A stretch of DNA of 35,860 nt, taken from positions 1-35,860 of the forward strand of contig JAFUVZ010000061.1 in assembly GCA_017471185.1 (NCBI GenBank). Direction: 5' to 3'. The notes below the pieces were generated by a model that did not search any database, had not been told where the DNA came from, and saw only the letters and a list, made by a program, of their open reading frames with translations. Position 1 is the stretch's first letter, and each line of letters begins with the position of its first letter. The DNA is from Bacteroidaceae bacterium. GTDB lineage: Bacteria; Bacteroidota; Bacteroidia; Bacteroidales; Bacteroidaceae. Positions 378 to 26,023 of the stretch are shown here, one piece after another. A program made the position numbers and the translations under genes.

Positions 378-488
378 AAAAAAGGTCTTCACTCTTCACA
401 GGCAGCACATAACACACAAATAAACAGTTAGTTAAGTGCGTGAAGAGGTGGTTCAGGTCTTCACAAGTCTTCACAACCCTTCACATCC
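378..488. repeat. Left terminal inverted repeat of VapE cassette 1
   Basis: From the outside inward: an A-run, TCTTCAC at 386 and 393 (7-bp spacing), a 40-bp unconserved spacer, a reversed copy GTGAAGA at 440-446, then TCTTCAC at 458 and 468 and CCTTCAC at 478, exactly 10 bp apart. The right end (1721-1829) repeats every element in mirror order with the same spacing. The outer 23 bp match at 22 positions. One-helical-turn spacing of the inner copies is typical of protein-binding iterons. Confidence 0.85.
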
Positions 489-544
489 GAGAAAGATTTA
501 CAACACGATATTATATTTATTAACCTTTTAATTTTTAATTACTT

Positions 545-1726
545 ATGAATGAAAAATCATTACAGGAAGTAATCTATGAAATAGAGAACTTCCTTGGCGA
601 GAACTACAGTTTTCGCCGTAACTTGCTCAGCGGCAAAACTGAAGTACAGGAGATTGGCGAGGGCAAAGAGCCTTCAGAATGGTGCATCCTGACAGAAGAG
701 GTATTCAACAGCATCTTGCTCAAGATGATGAAAGAGGATGTGGGAGGCAAATCACCAAAACAACACACCTTGGAGATTATCAATTCTGAGGCTACTGTTG
801 CGTATGACCCTATTAAGGAGTATCTAAAACACTTGCCCCAATGGGATGGGCGAAATCATGTGGCTGAGTTATTTAACCGCATCCCAGGATTGACTTCCGA
901 GCAGCTGTCTTGGTGCTGTACTTGGCTTCGCTCTGCTGTGGCTCATTGGATGGGCATTGATATGCTTCATGGCAATGAGGCTGTGCCTGTATTAATAGGT
1001 GCACAGGGATGTGGCAAAACAACATTCGCCACTCGCCTACTGCCTGTTGAGCTTCGTGCTTACTTCTTAGATCACATCAACTTCGGCAACAAGTTTGATA
1101 CGGATATGGCTCTGACGCATAACCTGTTGGTGAATATCGACGAGTTTGCCAATATGGGACCCAGTCAGCAAAGCAAGCTCAAGCAAACGCTTTCGAAAGT
1201 AAAAGTGAATGGGCGACCCATCTTTGGCAGAAGTCAGGATGACCGTCGACGATATGCCTCGTTCCTGGCAACTACCAACGATGAGCATCCGCTTTGCGAC
1301 ACCACAGGAAGTAGAAGATATATCTGCCTCCAGATTCCGAAAGGCAAGCTGATTGACAACACTGAAGCTATCAACTATGAGCAGCTTTACGCACAACTGC
1401 TCTATGAAATCAATGAGAAGCAAACACCTTATTGGTTCACCAATGATGAAGTGATTCGCATTCAGCAAGCCAACCTGCCTTTCTTCAAACAGGATGATTT
1501 GGAGGACATGATCAAAGGTTGCTTCAGAATACCGAATGATGAGGAAGAAGGCAAATGGATGCTCTGCAAACAGGTATATGAAAAATTGCAAGAAAGATAT
1601 CCATATTTTGTAGGCGACCAATCTATTAAAATCAAGATTGGCAATACGTTGAAGTTTATGGGATGTTCTTCGCAACATACTCGACAAGGGCAAATGTATC
1701 AGCTCATACCCAAAGAAGCAGCGTGA
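545..1726 (+). CDS. VapE/VirE-family P-loop ATPase of cassette 1
   Basis: A 393-residue protein of the VapE/VirE family (virulence-associated protein E, PF05272), P-loop ATPases found with primases in phages, islands and Bacteroidales accessory regions. A short N-terminal domain (about 1-95) precedes the ATPase core. Walker A is GAQGCGKT at 152-159, Walker B LLVNIDEF at 194-201, a TTN sensor-like motif lies at 243-245 and an arginine motif TGSRR at 254-258. There is no separate primase or DUF3987 domain, so this is a compact member. The start is the first ATG after the left terminal repeat, and the TGA stop (1724-1726) lies inside the first heptamer of the right repeat, so gene and repeat are tightly packed. 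A role in replicating or mobilising the cassette is inference. A paralogue is at 24697-25905. Confidence 0.85.
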   Translation: MNEKSLQEVIYEIENFLGENYSFRRNLLSGKTEVQEIGEGKEPSEWCILTEEVFNSILLKMMKEDVGGKSPKQHTLEIINSEATVAYDPIKEYLKHLPQWDGRNHVAELFNRIPGLTSEQLSWCCTWLRSAVAHWMGIDMLHGNEAVPVLIGAQGCGKTTFATRLLPVELRAYFLDHINFGNKFDTDMALTHNLLVNIDEFANMGPSQQSKLKQTLSKVKVNGRPIFGRSQDDRRRYASFLATTNDEHPLCDTTGSRRYICLQIPKGKLIDNTEAINYEQLYAQLLYEINEKQTPYWFTNDEVIRIQQANLPFFKQDDLEDMIKGCFRIPNDEEEGKWMLCKQVYEKLQERYPYFVGDQSIKIKIGNTLKFMGCSSQHTRQGQMYQLIPKEAA

Positions 1727-1829
1727 AGAGACGTGAAGAGTTGTGAAGAGGCAAACTGCCTCTTCACAGACTTATCAAAATGATTCTCAGGAATATAGAT
1801 ATGCTTTGTGAAGAGTGAAGACTTTTTTT
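1721..1829. repeat. Right terminal inverted repeat of VapE cassette 1
   Basis: Mirror of 378-488. GTGAAGA occurs at 1723, 1733 and 1743 with exact 10-bp spacing, a reversed TCTTCAC at 1761-1767, a 40-bp spacer, then GTGAAGA at 1808 and 1815 followed by a T-run. The inner edge overlaps the stop codon of the ATPase gene. The copy at 1743 and the reversed copy at 1761 can pair as a hairpin around GCAAACTGC. Confidence 0.85.
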
Positions 1830-2211
1830 GAAAGTGTGAAAATAATATACGATTTTGCTGCTCCGCTACCAAAATATTTTCCCTCACGAGGGAAAAATAA
1901 AAACCTAACGAGGGAGTAAACCATTGTTCGCTTCTGGCTAACTAGTCATGATTTACGGACTGACGTGCAGCCTGCTACGGGCTCACTCGAAAATTCTCAT
2001 GAAAATTTTGGGGTTTGCTTCCTTCAAACCTATTTGCTACTATCAAACCTAATGTTTGCTCCCTTCAATCCATGGGTTTAGCGGTAGTAAACCGATGGTT
2101 TACTACCGCTAAACCTACCGTCAGCTACCGCTAAGCAAACCATCAACTGACACTGGGCAGATTTGGCAGTGTAGTAGAAAATGCTTACCTTTACAACAAA
2201 ATAAAGAATGC
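1830..2211. other. Hairpin-rich spacer downstream of cassette 1
   Basis: No gene is seen in these 380 bases, but they are dense in short repeats: TTTTCCC/GGGAAAA around 1876-1896, several AAACCT and GTTTGCT words between 2010 and 2065, and a perfect 19-bp inverted repeat at 2075-2115. TCAGCTACCGC (2121-2131) and TACCGCTAAGCAAACC (2126-2141) recur in cassette 2, as GCGGTAGCTGA (24380-24390) and TACCGCTAAGCAAGCC (24359-24374). This suggests a conserved non-coding module that accompanies these ATPase genes. Confidence 0.6.
2075..2115. repeat. Perfect 19-bp inverted repeat with 3-nt loop
   Basis: GGTTTAGCGGTAGTAAACC (2075-2093) is followed after GAT by its exact reverse complement (2097-2115). 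No T-run follows, so a simple intrinsic terminator is unlikely. A third CTACCGCTAA at 2125-2134 could compete for pairing. It could be a cruciform or protein-binding site, or a structured 5' leader of the gene at 2212. Confidence 0.8.
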
Positions 2212-2892
2212 ATGAATACTGCCACAAAGCCAAGTTTCAATTACGAATCGTTCGACCGTCAGATGGAGGGGTTTCTCAGCATGAGTTATCTGATGATTGA
2301 CGAGTGGGACGAGTGTACATCGGAGGAGATGACTTCCGACCTGTATTCTCTCTGCATAAAAGGGGCTCGCCTATGCAACATGATAGACGCTGACTTGGCT
2401 TTGCAACAGCAGGACCTAACGCAAAGCCGTCATGGGAAGAACCAGGAATATTACCTACGTCTGAATGAAATCATGAGGCCGTTATCGGAACTGATATTCA
2501 AGGCAATGGACGAAATGAAGCAGCAGAAAACACTGAAAAGGCTCGGTGCTTCGGATGTACAGATGGATTTCTCACTGCTGATGCCCAAGTTGCAGGAGCT
2601 GCTGTCGCCAACTACAGAAGAGAATGTCCGTTCCAAAGAAGCATTCGCCTTATTGCCAATGCTTTTCAATGCCATCGAGAATGAACTGGGACTAATGCCC
2701 ATCAGTCAGATACCTTGGGAGTTGAGCGTTCTGAACCTGTTCAAGTATTTTGCCTCTATATGCCTGTTGCTCTTCCACTTTCAGAGTCTGGCAAAGATGA
2801 CCGACGAAGAGGTGAACAGCGAGGAAGCCGGGCGTATTCTCACAGGACTGGTACAGGGGTATGTGGACTCAGAGAAAGGCAAGAAGAGTTGA
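2212..2892 (+). CDS. Unrecognised 226-residue accessory protein
   Basis: I do not recognise this protein. It is acidic and looks mainly helical, with charged heptad-like stretches around residues 75-130 and one hydrophobic segment near 178-195 (FASICLLLF) that could be a buried helix or a weak membrane segment. There is no signal peptide and no catalytic motif that I can name. The start is the ATG after an A-rich stretch, usual in Bacteroidales, where Shine-Dalgarno sequences are weak. The next gene begins 17 bp after the stop and the GAGGAAG before it overlaps this stop, so the two are probably co-transcribed. Their place beside the VapE cassette suggests they belong to the accessory region. 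Confidence 0.75.
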   Translation: MNTATKPSFNYESFDRQMEGFLSMSYLMIDEWDECTSEEMTSDLYSLCIKGARLCNMIDADLALQQQDLTQSRHGKNQEYYLRLNEIMRPLSELIFKAMDEMKQQKTLKRLGASDVQMDFSLLMPKLQELLSPTTEENVRSKEAFALLPMLFNAIENELGLMPISQIPWELSVLNLFKYFASICLLLFHFQSLAKMTDEEVNSEEAGRILTGLVQGYVDSEKGKKS

Positions 2893-2909
2893 GGAAGTTT
2901 ATAGCCGTA

Positions 2910-3599
2910 ATGAAATATGAACACGACGGACAGTCGCTTTCTGCTACTGAGCTGATGGCTGAGCGTAGGCAACTGATTAAGCTGGTGCCCAGTGCTTTTC
3001 AGACTTGCTTCATGGAGAACATTGATGATATGAGCGCATTGGCCATGAGCATTGTTTCGATAAGGCCTTTGCCTAACGAGGATGATTTTGAGACCTTGCT
3101 CTCAGTCGTTGCCAAGTATCAGTGGATTTCAGAACGTCTGTATGAACACGACCACCCAGAGAGCATCAGTCCTGAGATTTTCAACGAGGTTTTCCATACC
3201 AGCAAAAACGGTAAGCCTGTGAACATGAAACGCCTTCGCAAGGTAATTGAGAAGATGATAGGTATGATAGACAAAAAGAACCACTGGTTCTGCATCTATA
3301 GCGTGCTGAAGTACCGCAACTATATCAAAGACCCCGTTGCCACGCATTTTGCCCAGCAGATGCAGCATCACGACTGGTTCCCCAACTTGCCTAAGCACTT
3401 GCGTTTCTCTGGTGAGACGCTAACTGAATACAACGGTTATCTGAACGACAATACCTATCCCACTTGGAACAAGGAAAGATATGAGATATTCCGCTTAGGC
3501 AAAGGCAAGAAGAAATGGTCGCCCACCTTATGGATGAAGTTTCAAAGGTTGTGCTACGAACTGGACGAATGTTTCGTTGATGATAAACTGGACAGATAA
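2910..3599 (+). CDS. Unrecognised 229-residue accessory protein
   Basis: The frame is open further upstream (from 2715), but that part overlaps the preceding gene entirely, so I chose the ATG at 2910, which has GAGGAAG about 13 bp before it. The protein is soluble, rich in Trp, His and Tyr in its second half (for example HHDWFPNLPKH and KKWSPTLWMKF), and has a basic stretch around KRLRKVIEKMIG. I know no family for it and see no catalytic signature. It follows the gene at 2212 closely and likely works with it. The basic, aromatic composition would fit nucleic-acid binding, but that is only a guess. Confidence 0.75.
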   Translation: MKYEHDGQSLSATELMAERRQLIKLVPSAFQTCFMENIDDMSALAMSIVSIRPLPNEDDFETLLSVVAKYQWISERLYEHDHPESISPEIFNEVFHTSKNGKPVNMKRLRKVIEKMIGMIDKKNHWFCIYSVLKYRNYIKDPVATHFAQQMQHHDWFPNLPKHLRFSGETLTEYNGYLNDNTYPTWNKERYEIFRLGKGKKKWSPTLWMKFQRLCYELDECFVDDKLDR

Positions 3600-3724
3600 T
3601 AGGAAAGACCACTCAAAGAGAACTATTCCTTGTAATACATACTATATCCAATTTATTTTATTAACTTCGCATAGTGGAGATATAAGAAGTAGGAGCTATT
3701 AGGAAATAAAAAACATAGTTTGGG

Positions 3725-5980
3725 ATGAGAATAAAGTCATTATTATTGATACTCGCCTCGATCATAGTATGCACAACCCTCAATGCACAGGAAGGCGAAA
3801 TGAGTAGCGAGAGGAAGAAAGTGGGTGTCGTACTGAGTGGCGGTGGCGCCAAAGGTATGGCGCACATTGGTGTGCTGAAGGTACTGGAAAAGGCAGGGAT
3901 ACCTATTGACATCATTACAGGCACATCAATGGGTAGCATCGTTGGCGGATTATACGCCATTGGTTATAACTCAAATGCTCTCGATTCAATTGTCAGGATG
4001 CAAGACTGGGGATATGTGATTTCAGATAAGGAGAACATGAGCAACCAGAGCATCAGCGACCGCAAGAAACAGAACACATATTTTATCTCGACAGGCCTGA
4101 CCATAGGTAAAAATGACATACACGCCGGAGGTATCATCAAAGGCAAGAACCTAGCAGAACTATTCCAACGCCTTTGTACGGGATATACTGACTCTCTGGA
4201 TTTCTCTAAAGACTTACGCATACCTTTCGCTTGTGTGGCTACTGACATCATTGACAACAGTGAGGTGGATTTCCACAGTGGCAGACTGCCACAGGCCATG
4301 CGTGCATCAATGTCCATTCCTGGAGCCTTCTCACCAGTCAGACTGGGTGATATGGTGCTGGTAGATGGAGGTCTGAAGAATAATTATCCTGCAGACATTG
4401 CCAAGAAGATGGGTGCCGATATCATCATTGGTGTAACTGTGCAATCCGACCCGAAAGTGGCTGAGGACCTGGAGAACACAATAAGCATCCTCAATCAAAT
4501 CATCGATGTAAATGTAAAAAACAAGGTGGAAGAGAACCTTGAGATTACCGACCTGCACCTGAAAGTCGATACAAGGGGATATAGCACCGCTAGTTTCTCC
4601 ACCACAGCAATCGATTCACTTATTCGTCGTGGAGAAGAAATGGCGATGAGCCACTGGGACGAAATCATCGCCTTGAAACAGCGCATTGGCATTGACGATT
4701 CTTTCCGCCCTGTCAAACACTATCCACTACACAGTGAGGTATTGACTGAAAAACAGCTTATTACTGGCTACACTTTTGAGAACATGACACCTCAGGATGA
4801 GCTTTTTATTCGCCAGAAATTCAGTCTAAACAGGAATGACAGCATGGATGCCAAACTGGAGCAGCAACTCACGACTACTATGCGTGTTGACCTGTTCTAT
4901 CAGACTGCAGAGTGCAGGTTGGTGCCAGAGGGTGACGGAGTGCATGTCATACTTTCGGCAGGTGAGCGCAAGACGGTACAGTTATATGCAGGTGCTCGTT
5001 TTGACACCGAAGAATATGCTGCCTTGCAGGTGGGCGCCGACATCCCGCTTAAAACGAAAATACCAATCAATACTGACATTACTGTGCGATTAGGCAAACG
5101 AATGATGACCCGTGCTGAAATTACCATTCACCCACGCAGTTTTACACGTCCTAAATTCAGCTATACATTCTTCCGCAACGATGTGGATGTCTATTTTAAC
5201 GGGAAGAGGGATTATAACATTCTCTACAATCAGTTCCAGGCCGAATTCCTGCCTATCAGCTTTAACTTGCGCAACTTTGACCTGCAAATGGGTATCCGAT
5301 GGGACTATATGCACTATCGGGACAAACTCGGATCGGAGACATCTAAGCAGGTGATGCTCAAAAACGAGCACTTTTTCAGTTATCATGCGAGCATCAACTA
5401 TAACAGCGAGGATAACTGGTACTTCCCCACGCGTGGCTCACTTTTCCAGGCAGAATTTACTTATCTAACCAATGACTTTGTTAATCTCAACGAATATGCG
5501 GCTGACGGAACAAAACTGGGTAAGAAACCAGCTATGGGTGAAGTGAAGGCCAACTGGCAAATGTCATTCCCTATAAACAACCATCTGACCATCCAACCTA
5601 TGCTCTATGGGCGCCTGCTCTTCGGACCAGTCGTTCCTGTAGTTTTCAGCAATACCATTGGAGGCAACTGGTTTGGTCATTATATTGAGCAGCAGATGCC
5701 TTTCGCCGGCATTGGACACATGGAATACATAGACAACCAGTTTATAGCTGCTCAAATACAGGCACAACAGCGCATAGGACAAAGCCATTATGTACAGTTG
5801 AGAGTGGCTGGGGGCCAGCAAGCGGATAAACTGGGCAATATTTTTGACAACCGCACTTTGATTGGTGGTCAGATTGCATACTACTATAATACTATGGCTG
5901 GTCCACTGGGGGCCACCTTCGGCTATAGCAACCATACCCAAAAAGCATATTTCTATGTGAATCTTGGGTTTGTGTTCTAA
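3725..5980 (+). CDS. Patatin-like phospholipase with C-terminal outer-membrane barrel
   Basis: A 751-residue protein with a signal peptide (about 1-21, ending LNAQ). The patatin lipase domain (about 33-230) has the glycine-rich oxyanion loop SGGGAKG at 38-44, the nucleophile serine in GTSMG at 66-70 (Ser68) and the catalytic aspartate in DGG at 214-216. The second half resembles an Omp85/surface-antigen barrel, with a POTRA-like segment around 340-410 and a terminal strand ending in phenylalanine (YFYVNLGFVF). The architecture resembles PlpD-type (type Vd) proteins, in which the barrel anchors or exports the lipase. Expected activity is hydrolysis of phospholipid acyl chains at the cell surface or periplasm. 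TAACTTCG at 3662-3669 may be its -7 box. It stands alone, convergent with the ilv operon. Confidence 0.9.
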   Translation: MRIKSLLLILASIIVCTTLNAQEGEMSSERKKVGVVLSGGGAKGMAHIGVLKVLEKAGIPIDIITGTSMGSIVGGLYAIGYNSNALDSIVRMQDWGYVISDKENMSNQSISDRKKQNTYFISTGLTIGKNDIHAGGIIKGKNLAELFQRLCTGYTDSLDFSKDLRIPFACVATDIIDNSEVDFHSGRLPQAMRASMSIPGAFSPVRLGDMVLVDGGLKNNYPADIAKKMGADIIIGVTVQSDPKVAEDLENTISILNQIIDVNVKNKVEENLEITDLHLKVDTRGYSTASFSTTAIDSLIRRGEEMAMSHWDEIIALKQRIGIDDSFRPVKHYPLHSEVLTEKQLITGYTFENMTPQDELFIRQKFSLNRNDSMDAKLEQQLTTTMRVDLFYQTAECRLVPEGDGVHVILSAGERKTVQLYAGARFDTEEYAALQVGADIPLKTKIPINTDITVRLGKRMMTRAEITIHPRSFTRPKFSYTFFRNDVDVYFNGKRDYNILYNQFQAEFLPISFNLRNFDLQMGIRWDYMHYRDKLGSETSKQVMLKNEHFFSYHASINYNSEDNWYFPTRGSLFQAEFTYLTNDFVNLNEYAADGTKLGKKPAMGEVKANWQMSFPINNHLTIQPMLYGRLLFGPVVPVVFSNTIGGNWFGHYIEQQMPFAGIGHMEYIDNQFIAAQIQAQQRIGQSHYVQLRVAGGQQADKLGNIFDNRTLIGGQIAYYYNTMAGPLGATFGYSNHTQKAYFYVNLGFVF

Positions 5981-6019
5981 AAGAACTGCAAAAAACACAG
6001 AGCGTTTTACGCAATAAAG

Positions 6020-6050
6020 AAAAAGGGGAGTCCTCGCAAGAAGACTCCCC
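6020..6050 (-). terminator. Intrinsic terminator of the ilv operon
   Basis: GGGGAGTC (6025-6032) and GACTCCCC (6043-6050) form an 8-bp stem. Read on the minus strand, the stem is followed by five T residues (6024-6020), so it terminates transcription leaving ilvC. No T-run follows on the plus strand, so it should not serve the patatin gene well. Confidence 0.85.
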
Positions 6051-6075
6051 TACTCTTATAGCAATCAAAAGCTGA

Positions 6076-7119
6076 TTAGTTGTTCTCAGGACGAAGCTGG
6101 CGAACCACCTCAGCTGTACGCCACATCTCTGAATCGTGCAGAGCAGCAAGTTCTTTTTCCAAACCAACACGGTAGTCTGGCTTAGAGTTAGCATCGATAG
6201 AAATCTGTGCCTCATGACCAGACTTAACAGATGCATAAAGTTTCTCAACCACAGGCTTGATGGCATCGTGGAACGGGCCCATCCAGTCCAGAGCACCACG
6301 CTGGGCGGTAGTAGAGCAGTTTGCATACATCCAGTCCATACCCTTTTGAGCGAAAAGAGGCATCAGTGACTGAGTCAGCTCCTCAACAGTCTCATTGAAA
6401 GCTTCAGAAGGTGAGTGTCCGTTCTCACGCAGCACCTCATACTGAGCCAGCAGCAGTCCCTGGATAGCACCCATCAATGAACCACGTTCACCAGTAAGGT
6501 CAGAAGTAGCCTCACGCTGGAAAGTAGTTTCAAACAGATAGCCAGAGCCGATACCGATACCTAATGCCAAAGTACGGTCAAGAGCCTTACCTGTAGCATC
6601 CTGATAAACCGCATAAGAAGAGTTCAAGCCACGACCTTCGAGGAACATGGTACGCAGTGAAGTACCAGAGCCCTTAGGAGCCACCATAATCACATCGATA
6701 TCCTTCTGAGGAACACAACCTGTACGGTCATTCCAAGTGATAGCAAAACCATGTGAGAAGTACAGTGCGTTACCTGGTTGCAGGCACTTCTTCAGAGTTG
6801 GCCATACAGACATCACGGCTGCATCAGAAAGGAGGCACATCACGATAGTACCCTTAGTAGCAGCCTCTTCAATAGAGAAAAGAGTCTCGCCAGGCACCCA
6901 ACCGTCAGCCTTAGCCTTCTCAAAAGTCTTACCCTGACGCTGGCCAACGATTACATTGAAGCCATTGTCACGCAGGTTACAAGCCTGTCCAGGACCCTGA
7001 ACGCCATAACCGATAACTGCAATCGTTTCATCCTTTAATACCTCACGAGCTTTCTCCAACGGAAACTCTTCGCGTGTCATTACTTCCTCAATGACACCAC
7101 CAAAATTCATTTTTGCCAT
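6076..7119 (-). CDS. ilvC: Ketol-acid reductoisomerase
   Basis: This enzyme converts 2-acetolactate or 2-aceto-2-hydroxybutyrate to the dihydroxy acid with NADPH and Mg2+, the second common step of valine and isoleucine synthesis. It has 347 residues, near the usual length of the short class. The Rossmann loop is GYGVQGPGQ (37-45). A GPGQ sequence replaces the GHAH of many bacterial enzymes and is closer to the plant-type loop. VGQRQGK (58-64) would bind the NADPH phosphate, and SHGF and KGSG are conserved landmarks. It is the last gene of the leftward ilv operon, 84 bp after the thioesterase gene, and is followed by an intrinsic terminator. Confidence 0.95.
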   Translation of the reverse strand: MAKMNFGGVIEEVMTREEFPLEKAREVLKDETIAVIGYGVQGPGQACNLRDNGFNVIVGQRQGKTFEKAKADGWVPGETLFSIEEAATKGTIVMCLLSDAAVMSVWPTLKKCLQPGNALYFSHGFAITWNDRTGCVPQKDIDVIMVAPKGSGTSLRTMFLEGRGLNSSYAVYQDATGKALDRTLALGIGIGSGYLFETTFQREATSDLTGERGSLMGAIQGLLLAQYEVLRENGHSPSEAFNETVEELTQSLMPLFAQKGMDWMYANCSTTAQRGALDWMGPFHDAIKPVVEKLYASVKSGHEAQISIDANSKPDYRVGLEKELAALHDSEMWRTAEVVRQLRPENN

Positions 7120-7133
7120 ATTTTAATTATTTT

Positions 7134-7163
7134 ATTGAACATTGAATATTGAACATTGAACAT
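7134..7163. repeat. Heptad tandem repeat (ATTGAAC)n before ilvC
   Basis: Four tandem 7-bp units, ATTGAAC, ATTGAAT, ATTGAAC and ATTGAAC, lie in the gap just upstream of the ilvC start. A similar tract precedes ilvB, and related ATTGANN heptads separate susC from susD. Confidence 0.8.
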
Positions 7164-7203
7164 AACTGTCCGGAGCTTCAACCCCAATGCCCGTTGTTAT
7201 TAA

Positions 7204-7953
7204 TTAATTCCTTTTAAAGATAACCTTGGAACGGCAAACTGTTTCTGCCGCATTCTTTTTCACCTCCACATCGAAATGGCCCTCGTCCACCTTATCCACA
7301 TAATACGCAAGTGAATCACCAGCCATCGTCTCTGCAACATACGCCATCTCAAACCTATGCAAACGCTTCTCCTTGAAAGTGTCTATAGGGAACAGGTCGA
7401 GTATATGCTCCATATAGCGTATGCTATTCACATGCCCATTAATATCCATATCACTATATCTGACAGGCATTTCTGCTACCGGTTCCTTGCTGGTCACCTT
7501 AATTCGAGATGGCTTCTCTATGGGGCAATCCTTATCACAGATGTAACCTGTAATGTCACCATTGTGCATCGCCATCAAGTCGATGGGCTTACGAGTCTCC
7601 ATATTAATCATTGCCCAAACAGAGCGGGCATACGCCACAGGCTTACCTTCTTTGTTCAACACGGCAAAGTTACGGTCAGTAAACAGACGGTAAACATTTT
7701 CCACCCATGTCTGGATGCTGAAGGGCTCATACTGATAAGGAAGGTCTGTCATCTCAATGGCAAGACGAGAGAGTACCCATGTGTAGTTCTCCTCATTCAG
7801 GTGGTCAATGCCGAAACCACGGTCATGGGCATGAAAACCAGCCACATTGAGCAAATGGTTACCCAATACTCCGATGGTCAGATGTCCAGTGAAATCCACA
7901 TGGAAGGGTTCTGCCACAAACTGATAAGTGCCAATCTTGTCTAACTCACTCAT
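7204..7953 (-). CDS. Acyl-ACP thioesterase (FatA/FatB-like, hotdog fold)
   Basis: A 249-residue protein of the acyl-[acyl-carrier-protein] thioesterase family (PF01643), with tandem hotdog domains. The first half contains GFGIDHLNEENYTWVLSR and the second holds the typical Asn/His region DMDINGHVNSIRYMEH. It should release fatty acids from acyl-ACP in the cytosol. Its ATG overlaps the ilvN stop by 4 bp (ATGA), so it is translationally coupled to branched-chain amino-acid genes. The same placement is, to my knowledge, common in Bacteroidales. A link to branched-chain acyl primers is possible but unproven. Confidence 0.9.
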   Translation of the reverse strand: MSELDKIGTYQFVAEPFHVDFTGHLTIGVLGNHLLNVAGFHAHDRGFGIDHLNEENYTWVLSRLAIEMTDLPYQYEPFSIQTWVENVYRLFTDRNFAVLNKEGKPVAYARSVWAMINMETRKPIDLMAMHNGDITGYICDKDCPIEKPSRIKVTSKEPVAEMPVRYSDMDINGHVNSIRYMEHILDLFPIDTFKEKRLHRFEMAYVAETMAGDSLAYYVDKVDEGHFDVEVKKNAAETVCRSKVIFKRN

Positions 7954-8510: not shown

Positions 8511-8511
8511 A

Positions 8512-10200: not shown

Positions 10201-10211
10201 ATTTTCTTTTT

Positions 10212-10239
10212 ATTGAACATTGAACATTGAACAATGAGC
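10212..10239. repeat. Heptad tandem repeat (ATTGAAC)n between ilvD and ilvB
   Basis: Three exact ATTGAAC units followed by one degenerate copy (AATGAGC), close upstream of the ilvB start. The unit and the position relative to a start codon are the same as in the tract before ilvC. Confidence 0.8.
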
Positions 10240-10291
10240 ATTATCCATGCGGACAAGTCACCGCCCAACCTCAATGATCAGGTTAATATTC

Positions 10292-12100: not shown

Positions 12101-12114
12101 ATTAACCACTTTAC

Positions 12115-18353: not shown

Positions 18354-18372
18354 TGAATTTAGGAATTTATGG

Positions 18373-18903: not shown

Positions 18904-18930
18904 CTTTATATTTTTTTATGATGATTCATG

Positions 18931-18938
18931 CAAATATA
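18931..18938 (-). promoter_or_regulatory. -7 box of the kdsC-maf promoter
   Basis: TATATTTG on the minus strand matches TAnnTTTG and lies 28 bp before the kdsC start. Confidence 0.55.
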
Positions 18939-18952
18939 CGAAATATTATTGA

Positions 18953-18960
18953 TAACTTTG
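18953..18960 (+). promoter_or_regulatory. -7 box upstream of the FemAB-like gene
   Basis: TAACTTTG matches TAnnTTTG. It ends 6 bp before the ATG at 18967, so the transcript would have almost no leader. Confidence 0.55.
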
Positions 18961-18966
18961 CTCCAA

Positions 18967-19971
18967 ATGGCATATAAACTGACATCATATTACCGTGGAA
19001 GCCATGTGCCCGACCTGCCAGGCAATGACACATTCCACTCCAACGCTTTATTTCATATCTTCGAAGGTACACCCGAATGTAATCCTGTATTGCTGACGGT
19101 AAGCGAAGACGGTAAGGTTTTGGGGAAAATGCTCGCTGTAGTTCAACGTATCATACGCATCATGCCATTTTATCACATACGCAGATGTGTGTCATACGGA
19201 ACGGGAGAATTCTTCTGTCCCAATGAGCAACGTGAGGAGATATTCCAGTTGCTTCTTACAGAAGTGACGAGATACGCAAACCGTATGGGCTGTTTTGTGA
19301 TTGAATTGAGAAACCTGCCCACACCTCTGAGTGGATTTGGAACCTTCAAGCTAAACGGCTATTTCGCAGTGAACTGGCTAAGGGTACGCAATAAATTTGA
19401 TAATGATAGTATGCCTGTGGAGCAGTCGTTCAGCAACTCACGAAGGAGGCAAGTACGCAAGGCCATAAAAAACGGAGCCGAGACATCCGTTGCACAAACC
19501 GCTGCCGAGATCAAAGAGTTTGCTCAGATGCTGAAGCTCAATTACCTGTCTAAACTCAGGAAACACCTTCCTGCCATGGAATTCTTCCAGCAAATTCAGA
19601 AAGCCAACATCAAACTTGATGACAAAGACTGGCAACGATTTAAGATATTCGTGGTGAAATTCCAACGGAAGATTATCGGTGGCTGCGTTTGCATCTTCTC
19701 AGGAGAAACGGCATTCGTATGGTTTTCTGGAGGCATGAACAAGACCTATATGTTGCAATATCCAGGCGTGATGGCCGTTTGGCAGGCATTGAAGGATGCC
19801 AAGGAAGCAGGTTACAAATACCTGGAGTTTATGGATGTGGGCATGCCTTTCCGTGAACACGGTTATAGAGAATTCGTCCTGCGTTTCGGGGGAGAACAAA
19901 TCAGTACTCGCCGCTGGTTCCTTTTCAATTGGAAATGGCTCAACAAGCTTTGCCACTGGTTCTACGATTAG
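18967..19971 (+). CDS. FemAB/GNAT-type acyltransferase
   Basis: A protein of about 334 residues with a double GNAT-like fold of the FemAB/PF13480 type. A first half with RCVSYGTGEFFCPNEQ is followed by a basic segment, FSNSRRRQVRKAIKNG, typical of FemAB-like proteins, then a second domain ending with FMDVGMPFREHGYREFVLRFGG. Relatives transfer acyl or aminoacyl groups to cell-wall or polysaccharide precursors, and the exact substrate is not evident. The frame also has an ATG at 18928, but the -7 box TAACTTTG at 18953-18960 lies downstream of it, so I prefer the ATG at 18967. It diverges from kdsC, a lipopolysaccharide gene. Confidence 0.8.
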   Translation: MAYKLTSYYRGSHVPDLPGNDTFHSNALFHIFEGTPECNPVLLTVSEDGKVLGKMLAVVQRIIRIMPFYHIRRCVSYGTGEFFCPNEQREEIFQLLLTEVTRYANRMGCFVIELRNLPTPLSGFGTFKLNGYFAVNWLRVRNKFDNDSMPVEQSFSNSRRRQVRKAIKNGAETSVAQTAAEIKEFAQMLKLNYLSKLRKHLPAMEFFQQIQKANIKLDDKDWQRFKIFVVKFQRKIIGGCVCIFSGETAFVWFSGGMNKTYMLQYPGVMAVWQALKDAKEAGYKYLEFMDVGMPFREHGYREFVLRFGGEQISTRRWFLFNWKWLNKLCHWFYD

Positions 19972-19991
19972 CCTCTCTACACCCTACTCCA

Positions 19992-21560
19992 TTAAAACTC
20001 TGAAGTAAAATGGAACTTGATATGCTTAAAGTCCTGCTGAGCCATCGACAACACATATGAGCTGTCAGCCAGATATACGTCCCTACCCTCACGGTCTTTA
20101 GCCATATACTGGTACTTACGCTTCATGAAGTCCTGCAGTTCAGCCTCATCATCGCTCTCTATCCAGCAAGCCTTAAACAAATGAACGGGCTCCCAACGGC
20201 AACTGGCATTATACTCGTTGAGTAATCTGTACTGGATTACCTCAAACTGCAATTGCCCAACTGTACCAATAATCTTGCGTCCGTTAAACTGATTGACAAA
20301 CAACTGAGCCACACCCTCATCCATCAGCTGGTCAATACCTTTGGCAAGCTGCTTCTGCTTCATAGGATCAGCGTTCTCAATATACTTGAACATCTCTGGA
20401 GAGAAGCTTGGCAATCCACGGAAATGCAGATGTTCACCTTCAGTCAGCGTGTCTCCGATTTTGAAAATGCCATTGTCTGGCAAACCTATGATGTCGCCAG
20501 CCCAAGCCTCATCCACCGTACTCTTGCGTTGTGCCATAAACTGCACAGGAGAGGTAAAGCGCATAGACTTGTCATGACGTACATGATAATATGGTGTGTT
20601 TCGGGTGAACTTACCTGAGCAAACCTTACAGAAGGCGATACAAGAACGGTGATTCGGATCAATATTGGCTGTAATCTTGAAGACAAAACCCGTAAACTTA
20701 GGTTCTTCTGGATTTACCTCACGTTCCGTAGCCATCACAGGACGGGGGCAAGGTGCTATCTCCACGAAACAATCAAGCAGTTCCTGCACGCCGAAATTGT
20801 TTAACGCAGAGCCAAAGAACACCGGAGCCAGCTTACCATCCAGATACTGCTGACGGTCAAAGTCTGGATAAACACCAGAGAGCAGCTCCAGGTCATTGCG
20901 CAGCTGTTCTGCCAATTTTTCACCAATATGCTTTTCCAATTCTTCCGTGTTGATATCCACCTCATATTTCTCTGTCACCACTTGCTTGGAAGGCTGGAAC
21001 AGATTGAGCTTCTGCTCATAGATATTATACACGCCCTTGAAACGCTGTCCCATATCAATCGGCCAAGACAATGGACGCACACTGATTTGCAACTGGTCCT
21101 CCAGTTCATCCAACAAGTCAAAAGGATCCTTACCCTCACGGTCCATCTTATTGACGAATATGATAACAGGCGTATTCCTCATGCGGCAAACCTCCATCAG
21201 CTTCAAGGTCTGCGCCTCTACACCCTTGGCTGCATCCACCACGATGATAACGCTGTCAACAGCAGTCAGCGTTCGATAAGTATCCTCTGCGAAGTCCTGG
21301 TGTCCGGGAGTATCAAGGATATTTATCTTATAGTCATGGTAGTCGAACTCCAGCACGGAAGTAGTGACAGAAATACCACGCTGTTTCTCAATGTCCATCC
21401 AGTCGGAAGTTGCAGTCTTGCGTATCTTATTGCTCTTCACGGCTCCAGCCACTTGAATCTGTCCGCCAAAGAGCAATAGTTTCTCTGTCAATGAAGTCTT
21501 ACCAGCATCTGGGTGCGCCACGATGGCGAATGTACGTCTTCTTGCTATCTCGTTGTTCAT
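19992..21560 (-). CDS. prfC: Peptide chain release factor 3
   Basis: A 522-residue translational GTPase that recycles RF1/RF2 from the ribosome. G1 is AHPDAGKT (15-22), G3 DTPGHQDF and G4 NKMD, with the RF3-specific GISVTTSV region and a C-terminal domain of usual length. It converges with the FemAB-like gene with only 20 bp between stops and no visible terminator. Its -7 box, TAACTTTG (minus strand 21594-21587), lies within the terminator hairpin of the upstream gene. Confidence 0.96.
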
Positions 21561-21571
21561 ATACGTCTAAT

Positions 21572-21617
21572 AAAAATTTGAGGTTGCAAAGTTAATAACT
21601 TTCTCCGCAACCTCAAA
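21572..21617 (-). terminator. Terminator of the DUF5009 gene overlapping the prfC promoter
   Basis: On the minus strand TTTGAGGTTGC (21617-21607) and GCAACCTCAAA (21587-21577) form a perfect 11-bp stem, followed by TTTTTATT. The 19-nt loop and the start of the 3' arm hold TAACTTTG (21594-21587), the likely -7 box of prfC, so termination and initiation share the same bases. Confidence 0.75.
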
Positions 21618-21628
21618 ATGATAAGCGT

Positions 21629-22747
21629 TTAAACCTTCAGGAATACCTTTTTCTTATATAAGAAATAAAGGAACAGCCAGCATACAGCCACATAACCCGC
21701 TGCGCTCAGGAACGGCTGGACAGATTCTGGCACCAACGCTATCAGGCCACCAAACAGCCTGTTTGCTGTATATTGGAAATTAATGAAATGCTGTGCCAGG
21801 TAGATGGTGATGGAATTCATACCTATCACCACGAAGAACAGAATCCATCCGCGATGGTTCTTCACATCAATGATGTAATAGAACAAAGCGAACATCAGCA
21901 CTGAATAGGCGCCAACCAGGCATACGAATGTGCTTGACCATACCATCTTATTGGAAGGATAGAAAGTGTTCCAAATCAAACCAACCACCAATAAGGCGAT
22001 ACCGGCATAGACCATATACAAGGTCTTTTTTGTAGGCGTCAATCCTTCTTTCTCATATTTTATCCACTCACCGGTAAACATGCCCAGTAATGCAGTAGCA
22101 ATGGCGGGGATTGTACTGAAGATGCCTTCAGGGTCATAATCGCCATAGTAGATTTTACCAGGCAACAATAAGCGGTCTATATAGCCAGCCAGACAACCTT
22201 CGCGCGTCAAAGGATCAGCACCCGGATGATCTGGAGCGCCCACGAAAGCGGATAAAAGCCAATAACCCACCAGTATCACCGCCACGATGCCTACACGGGT
22301 TTTCCACTTTGTATTCATGAAAATCAAGGCACCGAACATCCAAGCCAGACCGATTCGAGCCAACACACTGGCATAGCGTGCATGGACAAAATCCCAGCTC
22401 CCCAGGAAACCATTGTAAATGATACCCAACAGCACCAATGTGAGCCCACGACGAATGATTTTCTTATAAATCTGTCCTTCCGTCTTGCCCTGCAGACGCT
22501 GTTTCTCCAAGGAGAAAGGGAATGAGATACCTGCGATGAACAGGAACAGGGGGAAGATGGTGTCATGATGAGCCAGTCCGTCCCACTTCACGTGGTCCAT
22601 CTGTCCTGCCAGCCACTGGAAGAAATCATTGGGAAAGATTGTCGCCAGCGAAGCAATCAGCGTGGCGCCTCCCATGATGAAAAACATATCGAAGCCTCTG
22701 AGCGCATCAAGAGACTGCAGGCGTTGAGGCATTTTCTGCTTGTCCAT
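21629..22747 (-). CDS. DUF5009/NagX-like membrane acyltransferase
   Basis: A 372-residue polytopic membrane protein starting near SLDALRGFDMFFIMGG, the signature of the heparan-alpha-glucosaminide N-acetyltransferase-like group (DUF5009/DUF1624). It has about ten hydrophobic segments, a histidine-containing FHDT-like loop (LAHHDTIFPLFLFIAG) and a basic C-terminus. Members are thought to move acetyl groups across the membrane onto sugars. It diverges from a sugar transporter of the MFS type, which supports a role in amino-sugar or glycan use (inference). Confidence 0.8.
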   Translation of the reverse strand: MDKQKMPQRLQSLDALRGFDMFFIMGGATLIASLATIFPNDFFQWLAGQMDHVKWDGLAHHDTIFPLFLFIAGISFPFSLEKQRLQGKTEGQIYKKIIRRGLTLVLLGIIYNGFLGSWDFVHARYASVLARIGLAWMFGALIFMNTKWKTRVGIVAVILVGYWLLSAFVGAPDHPGADPLTREGCLAGYIDRLLLPGKIYYGDYDPEGIFSTIPAIATALLGMFTGEWIKYEKEGLTPTKKTLYMVYAGIALLVVGLIWNTFYPSNKMVWSSTFVCLVGAYSVLMFALFYYIIDVKNHRGWILFFVVIGMNSITIYLAQHFINFQYTANRLFGGLIALVPESVQPFLSAAGYVAVCWLFLYFLYKKKVFLKV

Positions 22748-22773
22748 GGTATAATATTTTTAAGGTTTTGATG

Positions 22774-22801
22774 CAAAGATAATAAAAAAACACTATCTTT
22801 G
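22774..22801. promoter_or_regulatory. Divergent -7 boxes for the DUF5009 and MFS genes
   Basis: TATCTTTG reads leftward at 22781-22774 and rightward at 22794-22801. The boxes face apart with 12 bp between them, so the two promoters probably share regulatory space. Confidence 0.6.
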
Positions 22802-22844
22802 TCTCATTATAACCTTAAAACTGAATATTAAAACTAAGAATACT

Positions 22845-24203
22845 ATGAAACAGATTCCTGACAAAAGCTTCTGGCAGCTTTGGAACATCAGCTTCGGCTT
22901 CTTTGGCGTACAGATTGCCTATGCCCTCCAGAGCGCCAATATCAGCCGCATTTTCTCCACTTTGGGCGCTGACCCGCATAACCTGAGTTATTTCTGGCTC
23001 CTGCCACCGTTGGCAGGCATCATTGTACAGCCTTTCGTGGGTGCCTGGAGTGACCGTACATGGACCCGCTGGGGGCGTCGCATACCTTATTTATTCTTAG
23101 GTTCACTGGTGGCAGTCATCGTGATGTGCCTCTTGCCTAACGCCGGCAGCTTCGGCATGGCCGTTGGCACAGCCATGATTTTCGGTCTGTTCTCACTGAT
23201 GTTCCTCGACACCAGCATCAACATGGCAATGCAACCGTTCAAGATGATGGTGGGCGACATGGTGAACAACAAGCAGAAAGGCCTGGCATACTCCATTCAG
23301 AGTTTCCTCTGCAATGCCGGTAGCCTGGTGGGCTATCTGTTCCCTTATATCTTCGCTTGGATTGGCATACAGAACACAGCAGCCCAGGGTGTGATTCCAG
23401 ATTCCGTTATCTATTCATTCTATATAGGAGCCGCTATCCTGATTCTGTGCGTGCTTTACACCACTTCGAAAGTAAAGGAATACCCACCTAAGGAATATGC
23501 AGAGTATCACGGCATTACCGAAGAATCTAAGAAAGAGAAGACCAACATGCTTCAACTGTTGGTCAAGGCTCCAAAGGCATTCTGGACAGTAGGTCTGGTA
23601 CAGTTCTTCTGCTGGTTCGCCTTCATGTTTATGTGGACCTACACCAACGGTTCCATCGCAGCCAATGTGTTTGACGCTCCTACCGTAACCAACGTGGTGG
23701 ATGGTGTACAGAAACTGGTGCTCGACACCACCAGTCCTCAGTATCAGGAAGCTGCCAACTGGGTAGGCGTCATCTTTGCCGTACAGGCCATAGGCTCTGT
23801 GCTGTGGGCTGTGGTCATCCCTATGTTCAAGAACCGCAAGCTGGTCTATGCATTGAGCCTCGTATTGGGTGGCATCGGCTTCATCTCCATCTATTTCGTG
23901 CATAACCAGTATGCCTTGTTCCTGAGCTTCCTGCTTATCGGATGTGCTTGGGCTGCTATGCTGGCCTTGCCGTTCACCATTCTGACCAATGCCCTGACCG
24001 GTGGCCACATGGGCACCTACTTAGGCTTGTTCAACGGAACTATCTGCGTGCCTCAGATTGTGGCAGCAGCCCTTGGTGGCAGCATCCTGAGCCTCATGAC
24101 CCCTGCAGGAGGTCTTTCTCCAGAGGTAAATATGATGGTGATAGCAGGCGTAATGCTGATTCTGGGTGCTTGTGCCGTATTTATCATCAAGGAGAAGGAA
24201 TAA
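22845..24203 (+). CDS. MFS sugar transporter (GPH/SLC45-like)
   Basis: A 452-residue inner-membrane transporter with twelve predicted helices. The N-terminal SFWQLWNISFGFFGVQIAYA and the loop GAWSDRTWTRWGRRIPYLF are typical of glycoside/disaccharide:cation symporters related to the maltose/sucrose branch. Expected role: proton-coupled uptake of a di- or oligosaccharide. It is divergent from the DUF5009 gene. Its TAA stop directly abuts the left inverted repeat of VapE cassette 2, whose hairpin and T-run may serve as its terminator. Confidence 0.9.
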   Translation: MKQIPDKSFWQLWNISFGFFGVQIAYALQSANISRIFSTLGADPHNLSYFWLLPPLAGIIVQPFVGAWSDRTWTRWGRRIPYLFLGSLVAVIVMCLLPNAGSFGMAVGTAMIFGLFSLMFLDTSINMAMQPFKMMVGDMVNNKQKGLAYSIQSFLCNAGSLVGYLFPYIFAWIGIQNTAAQGVIPDSVIYSFYIGAAILILCVLYTTSKVKEYPPKEYAEYHGITEESKKEKTNMLQLLVKAPKAFWTVGLVQFFCWFAFMFMWTYTNGSIAANVFDAPTVTNVVDGVQKLVLDTTSPQYQEAANWVGVIFAVQAIGSVLWAVVIPMFKNRKLVYALSLVLGGIGFISIYFVHNQYALFLSFLLIGCAWAAMLALPFTILTNALTGGHMGTYLGLFNGTICVPQIVAAALGGSILSLMTPAGGLSPEVNMMVIAGVMLILGACAVFIIKEKE

Positions 24204-24320
24204 AAAAACACAAGGATTCATATTTTTGCCTACACTCCTACACTACACTTCGGAAATGACTTTATACAGGGCGTTTCCGAAGTGTAGGCAAATGTGTAGT
24301 AGTGTAGGCAAATCTTTTTT
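24203..24320. repeat. Left terminal inverted repeat of VapE cassette 2
   Basis: Heptamers of the type [AC]CTACAC occur three times forward (24229, 24237, 24242) and three times reversed (24282, 24294, 24302). The repeat folds on itself: TTTGCCTACACT (24225-24236) pairs with AGTGTAGGCAAA (24301-24312), and ACACTTCGGAAA (24245-24256) with TTTCCGAAGTGT (24274-24285), around a 17-nt loop. A T-run at 24315-24320 could make it terminate MFS transcription. Confidence 0.88.
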
Positions 24321-24696
24321 CTTTTGTTACACCAGCGGGAAACTGATGCCTCGTTTAGTACCGCTAAGCAAGCCTTCAGGCGGTAGCTGATTCTTAAATT
24401 CTCTCGAGAATCTATGCGATTAGTTCAGGAAAGCAAGCCTCTTACTTGAAGTAATCAGGGCATTAGCTTCAAGTAATACATAAAGCATCGTTGGATAACC
24501 CTTCAGCCACCACCTCGTCATATCTTCGCAAACCGTTCTATACAGTAACGAGAGCCATTCTCATAAGCTTTGAGAACCGTCCTCGTTTTTTTGCAAAAAG
24601 GTCCAAAAAGGCGGAATAAGTTGGAAATAATTTGGAACTTTTAAGAATTTTTATTAACTTCGTGGGCATTTTTCACAAACATAAAAATTAACCATT
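24321..24696 (+). other. Structured leader of the cassette 2 ATPase gene
   Basis: A non-coding stretch with several inverted repeats: the palindromic ATTCTCTCGAGAAT (24398-24411), TTACTTGAAG/CTTCAAGTAA (24442-24451 and 24467-24476), and a terminator-like nested hairpin ACGAG/CTCGT (24548-24586) with an inner TTCTCA/TGAGAA and seven T residues. It also carries TACCGCTAAGCAAGCC and GCGGTAGCTGA, shared with the spacer behind cassette 1. A promoter follows at 24631-24662. Confidence 0.65.
24631..24662 (+). promoter_or_regulatory. Promoter of the cassette 2 ATPase gene
   Basis: TTTG (24631-24634), 20 bp, then TAACTTCG (24655-24662), a one-base variant of TAnnTTTG, 34 bp before the start. It lies just behind the terminator-like hairpin, which would insulate it from read-through. 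Confidence 0.65.
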
Positions 24697-25905
24697 ATGG
24701 AAGACTCCCAGAGAGTAAGGGTTATGACTCCCCAAAAGTCAAATGAGAAGTTGCTGGTGATCAACAAGACACAACAGAAAGCTGTGATGCTCCAACGCTA
24801 CATGAGGGAACACTATGTACTCAGGTTCAACAAACTGACTGGCAAGGTTGAGTTTGATGAAAGGATTTCAGCTGGACTTGGATTCAGGGTCATTGACGAG
24901 CGAAGGCTCAACACGATGGTGATGGATGCGAGACTATGCGGAATAGAGGTGAACGACAGGGACATGAGAAGATACATTCATTCGATGGATGTTCCTGATT
25001 TCAACCCTGTTGACAGCTATCTCCAAAGGGTAAGAGGCACATGGGACGGTATTGACCGAGTGGGCGACTTGGCCAGAAGAATCAAGACTGACAACACCTT
25101 TTGGCAGGAATGGTTCGCTATTTGGCTCAGAGGAGTGGTAGCTCAATGGCAGGGTAAGAGTCATCTGTATGGCAACAGCGTGGCACCTATTATAATAGGT
25201 AAGCAAGGATGGCACAAGTCAACTTTCTGCCGACAGCTCCTGCCTCCAGAACTGAGTTTCGGTTTTACCGACCAGCTCGACTTTGGCAGCAAGCATGACA
25301 TTGACCTGACTTTCAAGCATTATCTGCTGGTGAATGTGGATGAGTTTGACCAGCTGACCAAGAAGATGCAGAACGGTTATCTGAAGAACCTGATGCAACG
25401 CACTGACAGTAAAAGCCGTAAGCTGTTTACCGACGACGTGGTCGAGGCTCGTAGGTATGCCTCATTCATGGGCACGAGCAATGTGACCGACTTGCTGACT
25501 GACCCAACGGGCAGCAGGCGTTTCCTGTGCGTGGAACTGACGGCTCCTATTGATACACAGACTCCTATTGAACACGACCAGCTATATGCTCAGCTTTTGC
25601 AGGAACTGGAGGAAGGCAAGCCTTATTGGTTCAACGAGCAGGAAGTGGAGGCTATAATGGAGTCAAATCGCAGATTCATGCACACCGACTTGAGGGAACA
25701 GCTTTTCCATGAGTACTTCACAAGTCCGACTCAGGATGAAGAGGGCGAATGGATGTCTCCTACCGAGATTCTGCATAGCATCAGAGAAAGGCACGGTAAG
25801 CTGGACATGAGTGTGTCACACTTCGGTATCTACCTCCGTAACAAGACGGATTTACCTCGCCGACGAGTTTCATCCGGTATGCAATACAGGGTAAATGTAG
25901 CCTGA
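24697..25905 (+). CDS. VapE/VirE-family P-loop ATPase of cassette 2
   Basis: A 402-residue paralogue of the cassette 1 protein. An N-terminal domain (about 25-115, including YVLRFNKLTGKVEF) is followed by the ATPase core. Walker B is LLVNVDEF at 210-217 and the arginine motif TGSRR is at 271-275. Walker A reads GKQGWHKS at 168-175, with histidine (H173) where the consensus has glycine before the lysine; the lysine and serine are kept. Both proteins share NPVDSYL/DPIKEYL, the downstream WDG, and RRYASF. The stop directly abuts the right inverted repeat. Its own repeats probably serve as its binding sites (inference). Confidence 0.85.
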   Translation: MEDSQRVRVMTPQKSNEKLLVINKTQQKAVMLQRYMREHYVLRFNKLTGKVEFDERISAGLGFRVIDERRLNTMVMDARLCGIEVNDRDMRRYIHSMDVPDFNPVDSYLQRVRGTWDGIDRVGDLARRIKTDNTFWQEWFAIWLRGVVAQWQGKSHLYGNSVAPIIIGKQGWHKSTFCRQLLPPELSFGFTDQLDFGSKHDIDLTFKHYLLVNVDEFDQLTKKMQNGYLKNLMQRTDSKSRKLFTDDVVEARRYASFMGTSNVTDLLTDPTGSRRFLCVELTAPIDTQTPIEHDQLYAQLLQELEEGKPYWFNEQEVEAIMESNRRFMHTDLREQLFHEYFTSPTQDEEGEWMSPTEILHSIRERHGKLDMSVSHFGIYLRNKTDLPRRRVSSGMQYRVNVA

Positions 25906-26023
25906 GAAAAATATTTGCCTACACTACTACACCTTTGCATACACTTCGGAAACGCTTATCCACAGGGCGTTTCAGAAGTTTAGTGTAGGAGTGTAGGCAA
26001 AAATACGAATCCTTGCGTTTTTT
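25906..26023. repeat. Right terminal inverted repeat of VapE cassette 2
   Basis: Reverse complement of 24203-24320 over its full length. TTTGCCTACACT (25914-25925) can pair with AGTGTAGGCAAA (25990-26001) and ACACTTCGGAAA (25941-25952) with TTTCAGAAGTTT (25970-25981). The 17-nt loop (25953-25969) ends ACAGGGCG in the same plus-strand direction as in the left repeat, so the loop is not inverted with the arms. Confidence 0.88.

Follow-up and report, generated by a model that had tools for sequence, protein, structure and literature searches.

Helicase cassettes between private iteron ends in Bacteroidales: candidate self-specific initiators that may spread as selfish repeats

The window analysed here, a stretch of 35,860 nucleotides from a Bacteroidaceae bacterium (GenBank assembly GCA_017471185.1, contig JAFUVZ010000061.1, positions 1 to 35,860), holds two cassettes, A and B. 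Each consists of a single gene for a VapE-type ATPase between inverted ends built of short repeated words (iterons), and the word differs between the two. At the level of sequence, this anatomy, the diversity of words among relatives, the co-variation of the word with the C-terminal domain of the protein and the presence of gene-less palindromes alongside a matching helicase are established. The explanation that we favour, at a probability of roughly 0.55, is that a self-specific initiator helicase acts at its own origin-like ends and spreads as a selfish repeat.

Anatomy of the two cassettes

The features are as follows (a minus sign marks an inverted iteron).
375..1832, forward strand: cassette A, a single gene flanked by inverted iteron ends
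386..484, forward strand: left end of A, iterons at 386, 393, 440(-), 458, 468 and 478, one mismatch allowed
545..1726, forward strand: gene A, 393 aa, VapE-like SF3-type ATPase with C-terminal DUF3874
1490..1708, forward strand: C-terminal domain of A (residues 316-388), the proposed iteron reader
1723..1821, reverse strand: right end of A, iterons at 1723(-), 1733(-), 1743(-), 1761, 1808(-) and 1815(-)
24203..26023, forward strand: cassette B, a single VapE-type gene between inverted iteron ends
24229..24308, forward strand: left end of B, CCTACAC iterons at 24229, 24237, 24282(-), 24294(-, one mismatch) and 24302(-)
24697..25905, forward strand: gene B, 402 aa, VapE-like ATPase plus DUF3874
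25918..25997, reverse strand: right end of B, iterons at 25918, 25926 and 25938 (each with one mismatch), 25983(-) and 25991(-)

The inverted arms of A (375-400 and 1807-1832) were 92% identical, and local alignment of 375-484 with 1723-1832 gave a score of 30.5, compared to at most 13 in 20 shuffles. TCTTCAC occurred in 11 exact copies, five on the left and six on the right, where no 7-mer exceeded 4 copies in 40 shuffles. With up to one mismatch allowed each end held six iterons, the one at 478 carrying the mismatch, and an additional one-mismatch match was present at 1667 within gene A. In the left end a spacer of about 40 bp separates the outer iteron pair from the remaining iterons. The stop codon of gene A (ORF, open reading frame, end at 1726) falls within the first right iteron. 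In cassette B, the left repeat begins at the stop codon of an upstream transporter gene (ORF end 24203), and the arms (24203-24256 with 25970-26023, and 24271-24319 with 25907-25955) were 93-94% identical; the end alignment scored 75, with shuffles at 14 or below. Seven exact CCTACAC copies (4+3) were found against a shuffle maximum of 4 to 5, making five iterons per end when one mismatch was allowed, and the ORF of gene B ends at 25905, with the right repeat starting at 25907. A/T runs stand outside the iterons of both cassettes, in A directly so, as A6 (378-383) and T7 (1823-1829).

The original prediction had described two cassettes with a common architecture and different iterons, and this was borne out by the shuffles and by the 131 control ORFs described below. 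An A-run outside the iterons and an ATPase ending at or in the right repeat were likewise found in both, and the expected count of about six motifs per end was right for A and slightly too high for B.

Pfam scores for the two proteins were well above cut-off, with 103.2 bits (PF05272) and 63.5 bits (PF12990) for A and 106.9 and 40.7 bits for B (cut-offs 25 and 28.3). The matches comprised VapE-like, DUF3874 and DUF5906 families plus weak AAA or unrelated families; there was one family-matched gene per cassette, and the Pfam scan of the window's genes revealed no transposase (DDE, serine or tyrosine), HUH/Y1 nuclease or integrase in either cassette. Proteins A and B share about 32% identity, and the A-type P-loop is canonical (GCGK[ST]). 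PHROG matches were to DNA helicase/primase, and the nearest solved structure by sequence was 7pds, 'similar to D. nodosus vapE' (profile match, E=7.8e-19).

A family with many private words

Matches to the A protein (E<=0.001) turned up in 121 of the 158 genomes searched from its genus-level group. The genome of the window has four, two in the cassettes and two in longer forms. Thirty of the listed places were at least 52% identical to A, and the remaining listed places were mostly open frames of about 700 aa. The four long forms that were scanned combined an N-terminal BT4734-like domain (primase-polymerase-like, PrimPol; PF08800) with VapE (PF05272) and DUF3874 (PF12990), the last scoring below cut-off in one of them (L079; L and G numbers are our handles for loci and genomes), and PADLOC assigned long forms to PrimPol/reverse transcriptase-associated matches. 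Outside this family DUF3874 was found in 2 of 148 phylum-sample genomes, one being the window's own and one a weak match. A viral origin was considered and rejected, as the best viral-contig match had 31% identity and phage and plasmid records all stayed below 60%. Related helicases (H1-H30; best identities 29-45%) were seen in Bacteroides/Phocaeicola plasmids and in faecal phage records that lack annotation.

A scan of named genomes gave at least 594 pattern matches and at least 460 relatives, of which the best 80 were kept (Bacteroidales, Prevotella, Segatella, Xylanibacter, Mediterranea and similar records). One automatic test found terminal repeats in 51 of these 80 and confident iterons in 60; 24 of the genes were already in our first set, and repeats were present in 40 of the 56 others. 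In that first, mixed set repeats were seen in 60 of 148 rows, or 54 of 127 distinct genes, in part because many loci had short flanks, and a few of the repeat calls were weak and iteron-less (e.g. L058, L138, L166). The family that had been suspected proved to be large, with cassettes of this kind in many Bacteroidales of gut and rumen, and the contrary outcome, that most homologues lack terminal repeats, did not hold for A-like proteins; in the mixed set those with repeats stayed below half. Applied to 131 other long ORFs as controls, the repeat test was passed by four, among them the tyrosine recombinase of the window, and the iteron test by 14, which puts the false-positive rate of the iteron test, used by itself, near 11%. 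Chance or an assembly artefact might be suspected on the ground that the closest relatives are mostly metagenome assemblies. The shuffles, these controls and the recovery of the same kind of ends in finished genomes (L278, complete chromosome NZ_CP091794; G041, a single contig) refute this for both window cassettes, and we give it next to no weight.

For comparisons between loci, 17 duplicate or truncated loci plus broken or short proteins were left out, which kept 123 of 148. A 93% identity filter then kept 83 of 122 loci with confident iterons, 54 in the A clade and 29 others; the iteron words of L010 and L072 were seeded by hand. Terminal repeats were present at 66 of these 83 loci. The words included TCTTCAC, ACTTCAC, ACTTCAT, CCTTCAC, CTTTCAC, CCTACAC, ACTCCAC and ACCTACC, further CTTACAAC, CTTCCGC, CTGTCAC, CTATCACC and TCTGCAAC, and others. 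The unrelated sites L008 and L064 carry the same word, and different words were found at the same site in L064/L067, L066/L068 and L017/L019, so that the word belongs to the cassette and not to the place. Between L064 and L067 the flank was 86-100% identical and the cassettes differed, the reverse being the case for L064 and L065.

Two further loci belong beside this survey. One contig of the window's genome has, at its edge (L329, G000:C17:6300-7068), a 72-aa DUF3874 tail together with repeats of yet another word, ACTACCAT/ATGGTAG, and may hold a fifth helicase element. At L289 the locus of a helicase element also holds a 260-aa ORF, which we take, from its motif, to resemble a REP-associated transposase.

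The iteron word follows the C-terminal domain

The original prediction held that protein and end motif diverge together, that each ATPase reads its own ends and that the N-terminal domain is the reader. Partial Mantel tests, in which the other protein regions were held constant, bore out the first of these. In the A clade (n=54) the C-terminal DUF3874 region gave a partial r of 0.281 (P=0.001), compared to -0.049 (P=0.74) for the N-terminal region and -0.044 (P=0.75) for the ATPase core. Outside the A clade (n=29) the values were 0.193 (P=0.004), 0.038 (P=0.27) and 0.043 (P=0.31), respectively. Over all 83 loci the C-terminal signal was 0.144 (P=0.002), that of the N-terminal region was -0.085 (P=0.98), and the ATPase core kept partial signal too (0.158, P=0.004). 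An earlier run, on 54 loci, had the same outcome. For these values and for the residue comparisons below, the control for kinship goes as far as the Mantel controls. Each ATPase hence appears to read its own ends, and the N-terminal domain is not supported as the reader; in the A clade the signal follows DUF3874.

Individual residues were compared with individual bases in 25 of 46 framed rows, kept as non-redundant, over 260 columns. Column 378 ranked first of the 260 for base 4 (T: H16 E1 R1; A: R5; C: E2). Column 380 split base 7 with no exceptions (C: R8 K6 N5 H1; T: M2 T2 S1), with columns 344 and 93 reaching a higher z for that base. Residue 359 went with base 1 (A: H6 Q1; C: M4 I2 L1 T1; T: mixed) and was fourth by z. 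R378 was combined with base A in three A-like groups (L067; L241/L242; L235/L237), and outside the A clade H378 went with T in 9 of 11 cases. All three residues fall within DUF3874 (318-387 by Pfam) and are encoded in gene A at 1619-1621 (359), 1676-1678 (378) and 1682-1684 (380). The pattern of the domain resembles a winged helix-turn-helix. A scan of unframed columns was discarded as a means of locating reader residues, since deep clades confounded it and the C-terminal domain did not stand out.

Genome G119 provides a natural experiment on the C-terminal tail and the word. Over about 280 residues its helicases L019 and L074 are near-identical, with five differences, and the last 35 residues alone hold 12; from L019 to L074 every full iteron copy in the block shifts from ACTTCAC to CCTTCAC. 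Judged by these statistics, DUF3874 as the putative iteron reader is the best supported step of the mechanism proposed below.

Shared geometry of the ends

From the 66 repeat-bearing non-redundant elements, 131 of 132 ends could be analysed. They had a median of five iterons and a spacer of 41 bp (median; interquartile range 38-44), which was AT-richer than its element in 101 of the 131 ends. Same-strand iteron spacings peaked at 7 and at 10-12 bp. The commonest order in the A type was outer pair, spacer, one inverted iteron and direct iterons, and in the B type outer pair, spacer and inverted iterons only. Median element length was about 1.6 kb with the short protein and about 3.0 kb with the long one. 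The outer pair, AT-rich spacer and turn-spaced inner iterons make each end look like a whole iteron origin, and the cassette would then be a gene between two inverted origin-like units.

The same ends might be read as regulatory operators by which the protein regulates transcription of its own gene, the palindromes described below being dispersed operators. By eye, several A-type left ends do lie between a promoter-like sequence containing TTTG and the start codon. The mirrored, two-ended geometry with an AT-rich spacer and the ATPase/primase family of the protein fit origin melting better, and we regard the operator reading as very improbable.

Gene-less palindromes of matching word

A search of the window's genome with cassette A returned matches to the ends alone. 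These loci are complete ends paired tail to tail, or single ends, and hold no helicase gene. In the sister genome G053, which has an A protein of 99% identity, the pattern TCTTCACTCTTCAY occurred 15 + 15 times and the reversed control pattern not at all; the next highest counts were 5+6 in the window's genome (G000), 6+3 in G104, 4+2 in G101 and 2+4 in G136. All 12 of the G053 loci read were palindromes with TCTTCAC ends, 153-306 bp in length, in which the iterons were kept and the spacers differed.

The pattern CCTTCACCCTTCAC was found in 21 of 157 genomes, and all but six of the 157 had three matches or fewer; matches within the cassettes' own ends are counted here. The six with at least five were G062 (6), G063 (11), G070 (5), G100 (14), G101 (8) and G119 (13), and every genome searched that has a known CCTTCAC helicase is among them, five in all (G062, G063, G070, G101 and G119). 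Fourteen CCTTCAC palindromes were read (five in G119, four in G100, three in G101 and one each in G062 and G070), and none had an open frame above 63 aa. The word of the gene-less doublets was exactly that of the gene's flanks in G053, G062, G070, G101 and G119, and mostly a one-base variant of it in G000. The block upstream of L010, a one-sided A-like gene, is itself a gene-less palindrome (L357).

Twelve palindromes with intact matching iterons and different spacers in one genome look like recent spread, as does the exchange of cassettes at a common site. Both observations speak against the strongest competitor of our explanation, namely that these are domesticated replication units, chromosomal remnants akin to plasmids or phage-inducible chromosomal islands (PICI) that were kept for a host function, such as phage-triggered local over-replication or a decoy, with the palindromes as immobile old origins. 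PADLOC, for its part, gave A just a weak AriA match (E=7e-4). Three things count in favour of such remnants: the parallel to Rep of Staphylococcus aureus pathogenicity islands (SaPI), with C-terminal iteron reading and an origin beside the gene (PMC7581432); the iteron block on one side only in several A-like relatives, which suffices for an origin and not for a two-ended transposon; and the CTGTCAC cassette, which occupies the same site in many species and is decayed in two. On balance we consider it unlikely, though the most serious of the alternatives.

Movement and the moving unit

Movement is suggested by the cassette exchange at one site, by the scattered palindromes and by similarity between sites that is limited to the element; between the L008 and L064 cassettes, which lie at different sites, similarity ends on both sides within a few bases of the repeats. 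The transfer step of the helicase-cassette model is nevertheless conjecture.

Several observations weigh against that model, the first group of which concerns the moving unit. Neither inspection of 19 elements by eye nor one filled/empty pair revealed a target-site duplication. Three of 12 G053 palindromes had both flanks on one contig of G000, and only L353/L378 was short there, the two others being one longer site and one pair about 10.6 kb apart. In this sole filled/empty pair a 745-bp block faces 37 bp, and the palindrome itself measures 249 bp. Intergenic flank modules of types c1 and c2 paired around 10 of 10 palindromes with both flanks clustered (L342-L355). For the CTGTCAC cassette, the two species considered as candidates for an empty site hold deletion scars and not an untouched site. 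A second group concerns the word: palindromes in the window's genome are mostly TCTTCAT, mixed with TCTTCAC, and not the TCTTCAC of A; at least one TCTTCACTCTTCAY match occurs in 73 of 157 genomes; G104 (9) and G136 (6) have such matches without a known matching helicase, and G100 tops the CCTTCAC counts likewise without one. As for the protein, the residue rules weaken outside the A clade, where R378 goes with A in only 3 of 12 cases and the rule for 380 is partial (basic or polar with C in 13 of 17, M/T/S with T in 2 of 4); the 7-mer frame fits only 46 of 83 A-clade rows; columns with P<=0.01 in the unframed scan numbered 25 of 77 in the C-terminal, 40 of 190 in the ATPase and 13 of 66 in the N-terminal part; and in B-type and B-side long proteins the P-loop lysine is not preceded by the usual glycine (GWHKS, GFRKS, GTRKS).

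The 745-bp block and the paired flank modules imply that what moves may be more than the palindrome and that another agent may move it. Accordingly, larger composite repeats (c1/c2 islands) could be mobilised by a transposase or recombinase encoded elsewhere, with the helicase merely binding the palindromes. The constant placing of c1 on one side and c2 on the other fits this, and so does the flank of A itself:
1833..2211, no strand assigned: right flank of A, of which the inner 330 bp cluster with flank type c1 of the gene-less palindromes of G053
The modules differ in kind and extent among copies, they were not seen beside the two window-genome palindromes examined, and the similarity of L008 and L064 stops close to the repeats, all of which makes composite mobilisation improbable in our estimate.

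No clean empty site could be defined for cassette B: ten relatives (L100-L109) have the transporter gene without the cassette or similar downstream DNA, which leaves no readable boundary. Outside B, a tyrosine recombinase gene (26574-27518) lies within inverted repeats of its own (27 bp, 26441-26467 and 27526-27552, 93% identity), and the unit 26441-27552 is possibly invertible or mobile. Beside A, the region 2212-3599 holds two genes without a Pfam match that are found at the same position in G053 and G065. Palindrome-like leader repeats of the TACCGCTAA type, distinct from the iterons, occur near the cassettes at 2104-2145 and 24359-24378, and an AGTTTCA type, equally distinct, was seen in long forms (L179, 3100-3290).

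Proposed mechanism and known systems

Returning to the self-specific helicase that we favour, the sole protein of the cassette would be an initiator-type helicase (a VapE/SF3 ATPase whose longer relatives are fused to a primase-polymerase domain), the C-terminal DUF3874 of which would bind an iteron of 7-9 bp. Each terminal repeat would be a complete origin-like unit, with the outer pair and the helical-turn-spaced inner set flanking the AT-rich spacer of about 41 bp. The helicase would load at its own ends, open the spacer and drive local DNA synthesis, and this synthesis, using host enzymes, would copy the cassette or gene-less end pairs to new places. Opening of the origin is proposed because of the protein family and the SaPI parallel. 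A change in C-terminal specificity would carry the iterons of a lineage along, resulting in a private word per lineage. Binding, unwinding, replication and spread caused by the helicase are what we infer from the sequence patterns. A bolder version, in which these are a class of mobile element free of transposase, nuclease and recombinase, whose only protein, the helicase, opens and copies DNA at its iteron ends to spread cassettes or end pairs, with word drift through about three C-terminal residues and thousands of mutually deaf Bacteroidales lineages, is more tentative and falls somewhat short of an even chance.

Each half of this picture has a known parallel, SaPI Rep with its origin and REPIN-RAYT, and the cassettes belong to neither system. 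SaPI Rep is a self-loading helicase whose C-terminal domain reads cognate iterons, and the origin lies beside the rep gene (PMC7581432). Like SaPI/PICI Rep, and Cch2 of the staphylococcal cassette chromosome mec (SCCmec), the proteins studied here are predicted initiator-type helicases with short iterons beside the gene, and as in SaPI Rep the C-terminal domain is matched to the iterons, here by statistics alone. In contrast to those islands, the iteron unit is doubled as inverted ends around one gene, gene-less end pairs occur genome-wide, and the cassettes carry no integrase, capsid-interference or other island genes.

The second parallel is to REPINs (repetitive extragenic palindromic doublets forming hairpins) and RAYTs (REP-associated tyrosine transposases), which, in the available descriptions, share with our elements a gene flanked by repeats and gene-less palindromic doublets of the same word. 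RAYTs are single-strand Y1/HUH-type transposases. No Y1/HUH domain was found in genes A and B, and the units here are iteron arrays of 140-310 bp, whereas REPINs are hairpins of 20-40 bp. Terminal inverted repeats, one gene and gene-less derivatives also recall insertion sequences and miniature inverted-repeat transposable elements, from which the cassettes differ in having no DDE, serine or tyrosine transposase. The relatives of about 700 aa are primase-helicases of the BT4734/BF3469 type (a name from plasmid records); some have ends of the same kind, and the PrimPol half is gone from the window forms. Cognate iteron ends of these proteins were not described in the literature found, as far as its accessible text goes. 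Nor was the combination of a Rep-iteron pair with REPIN-RAYT-like doublets found in the accessible parts of the open-access literature searched (including PMC7581432, PMC5862659, PMC2880560 and PMC7145576), and within that scope the combination appears new.

If the explanation is correct, genes annotated as VapE/DUF3874 would be self-specific initiator-origin pairs, and the iteron palindromes, at present anonymous intergenic repeats, would be explained. Hundreds of natural protein-motif pairs would then be at hand from which a DNA-recognition code could be derived and tested, and the family would supply orthogonal origin/helicase parts. For the genomes that carry them, the cassettes would represent a route by which repeats spread without a transposase.

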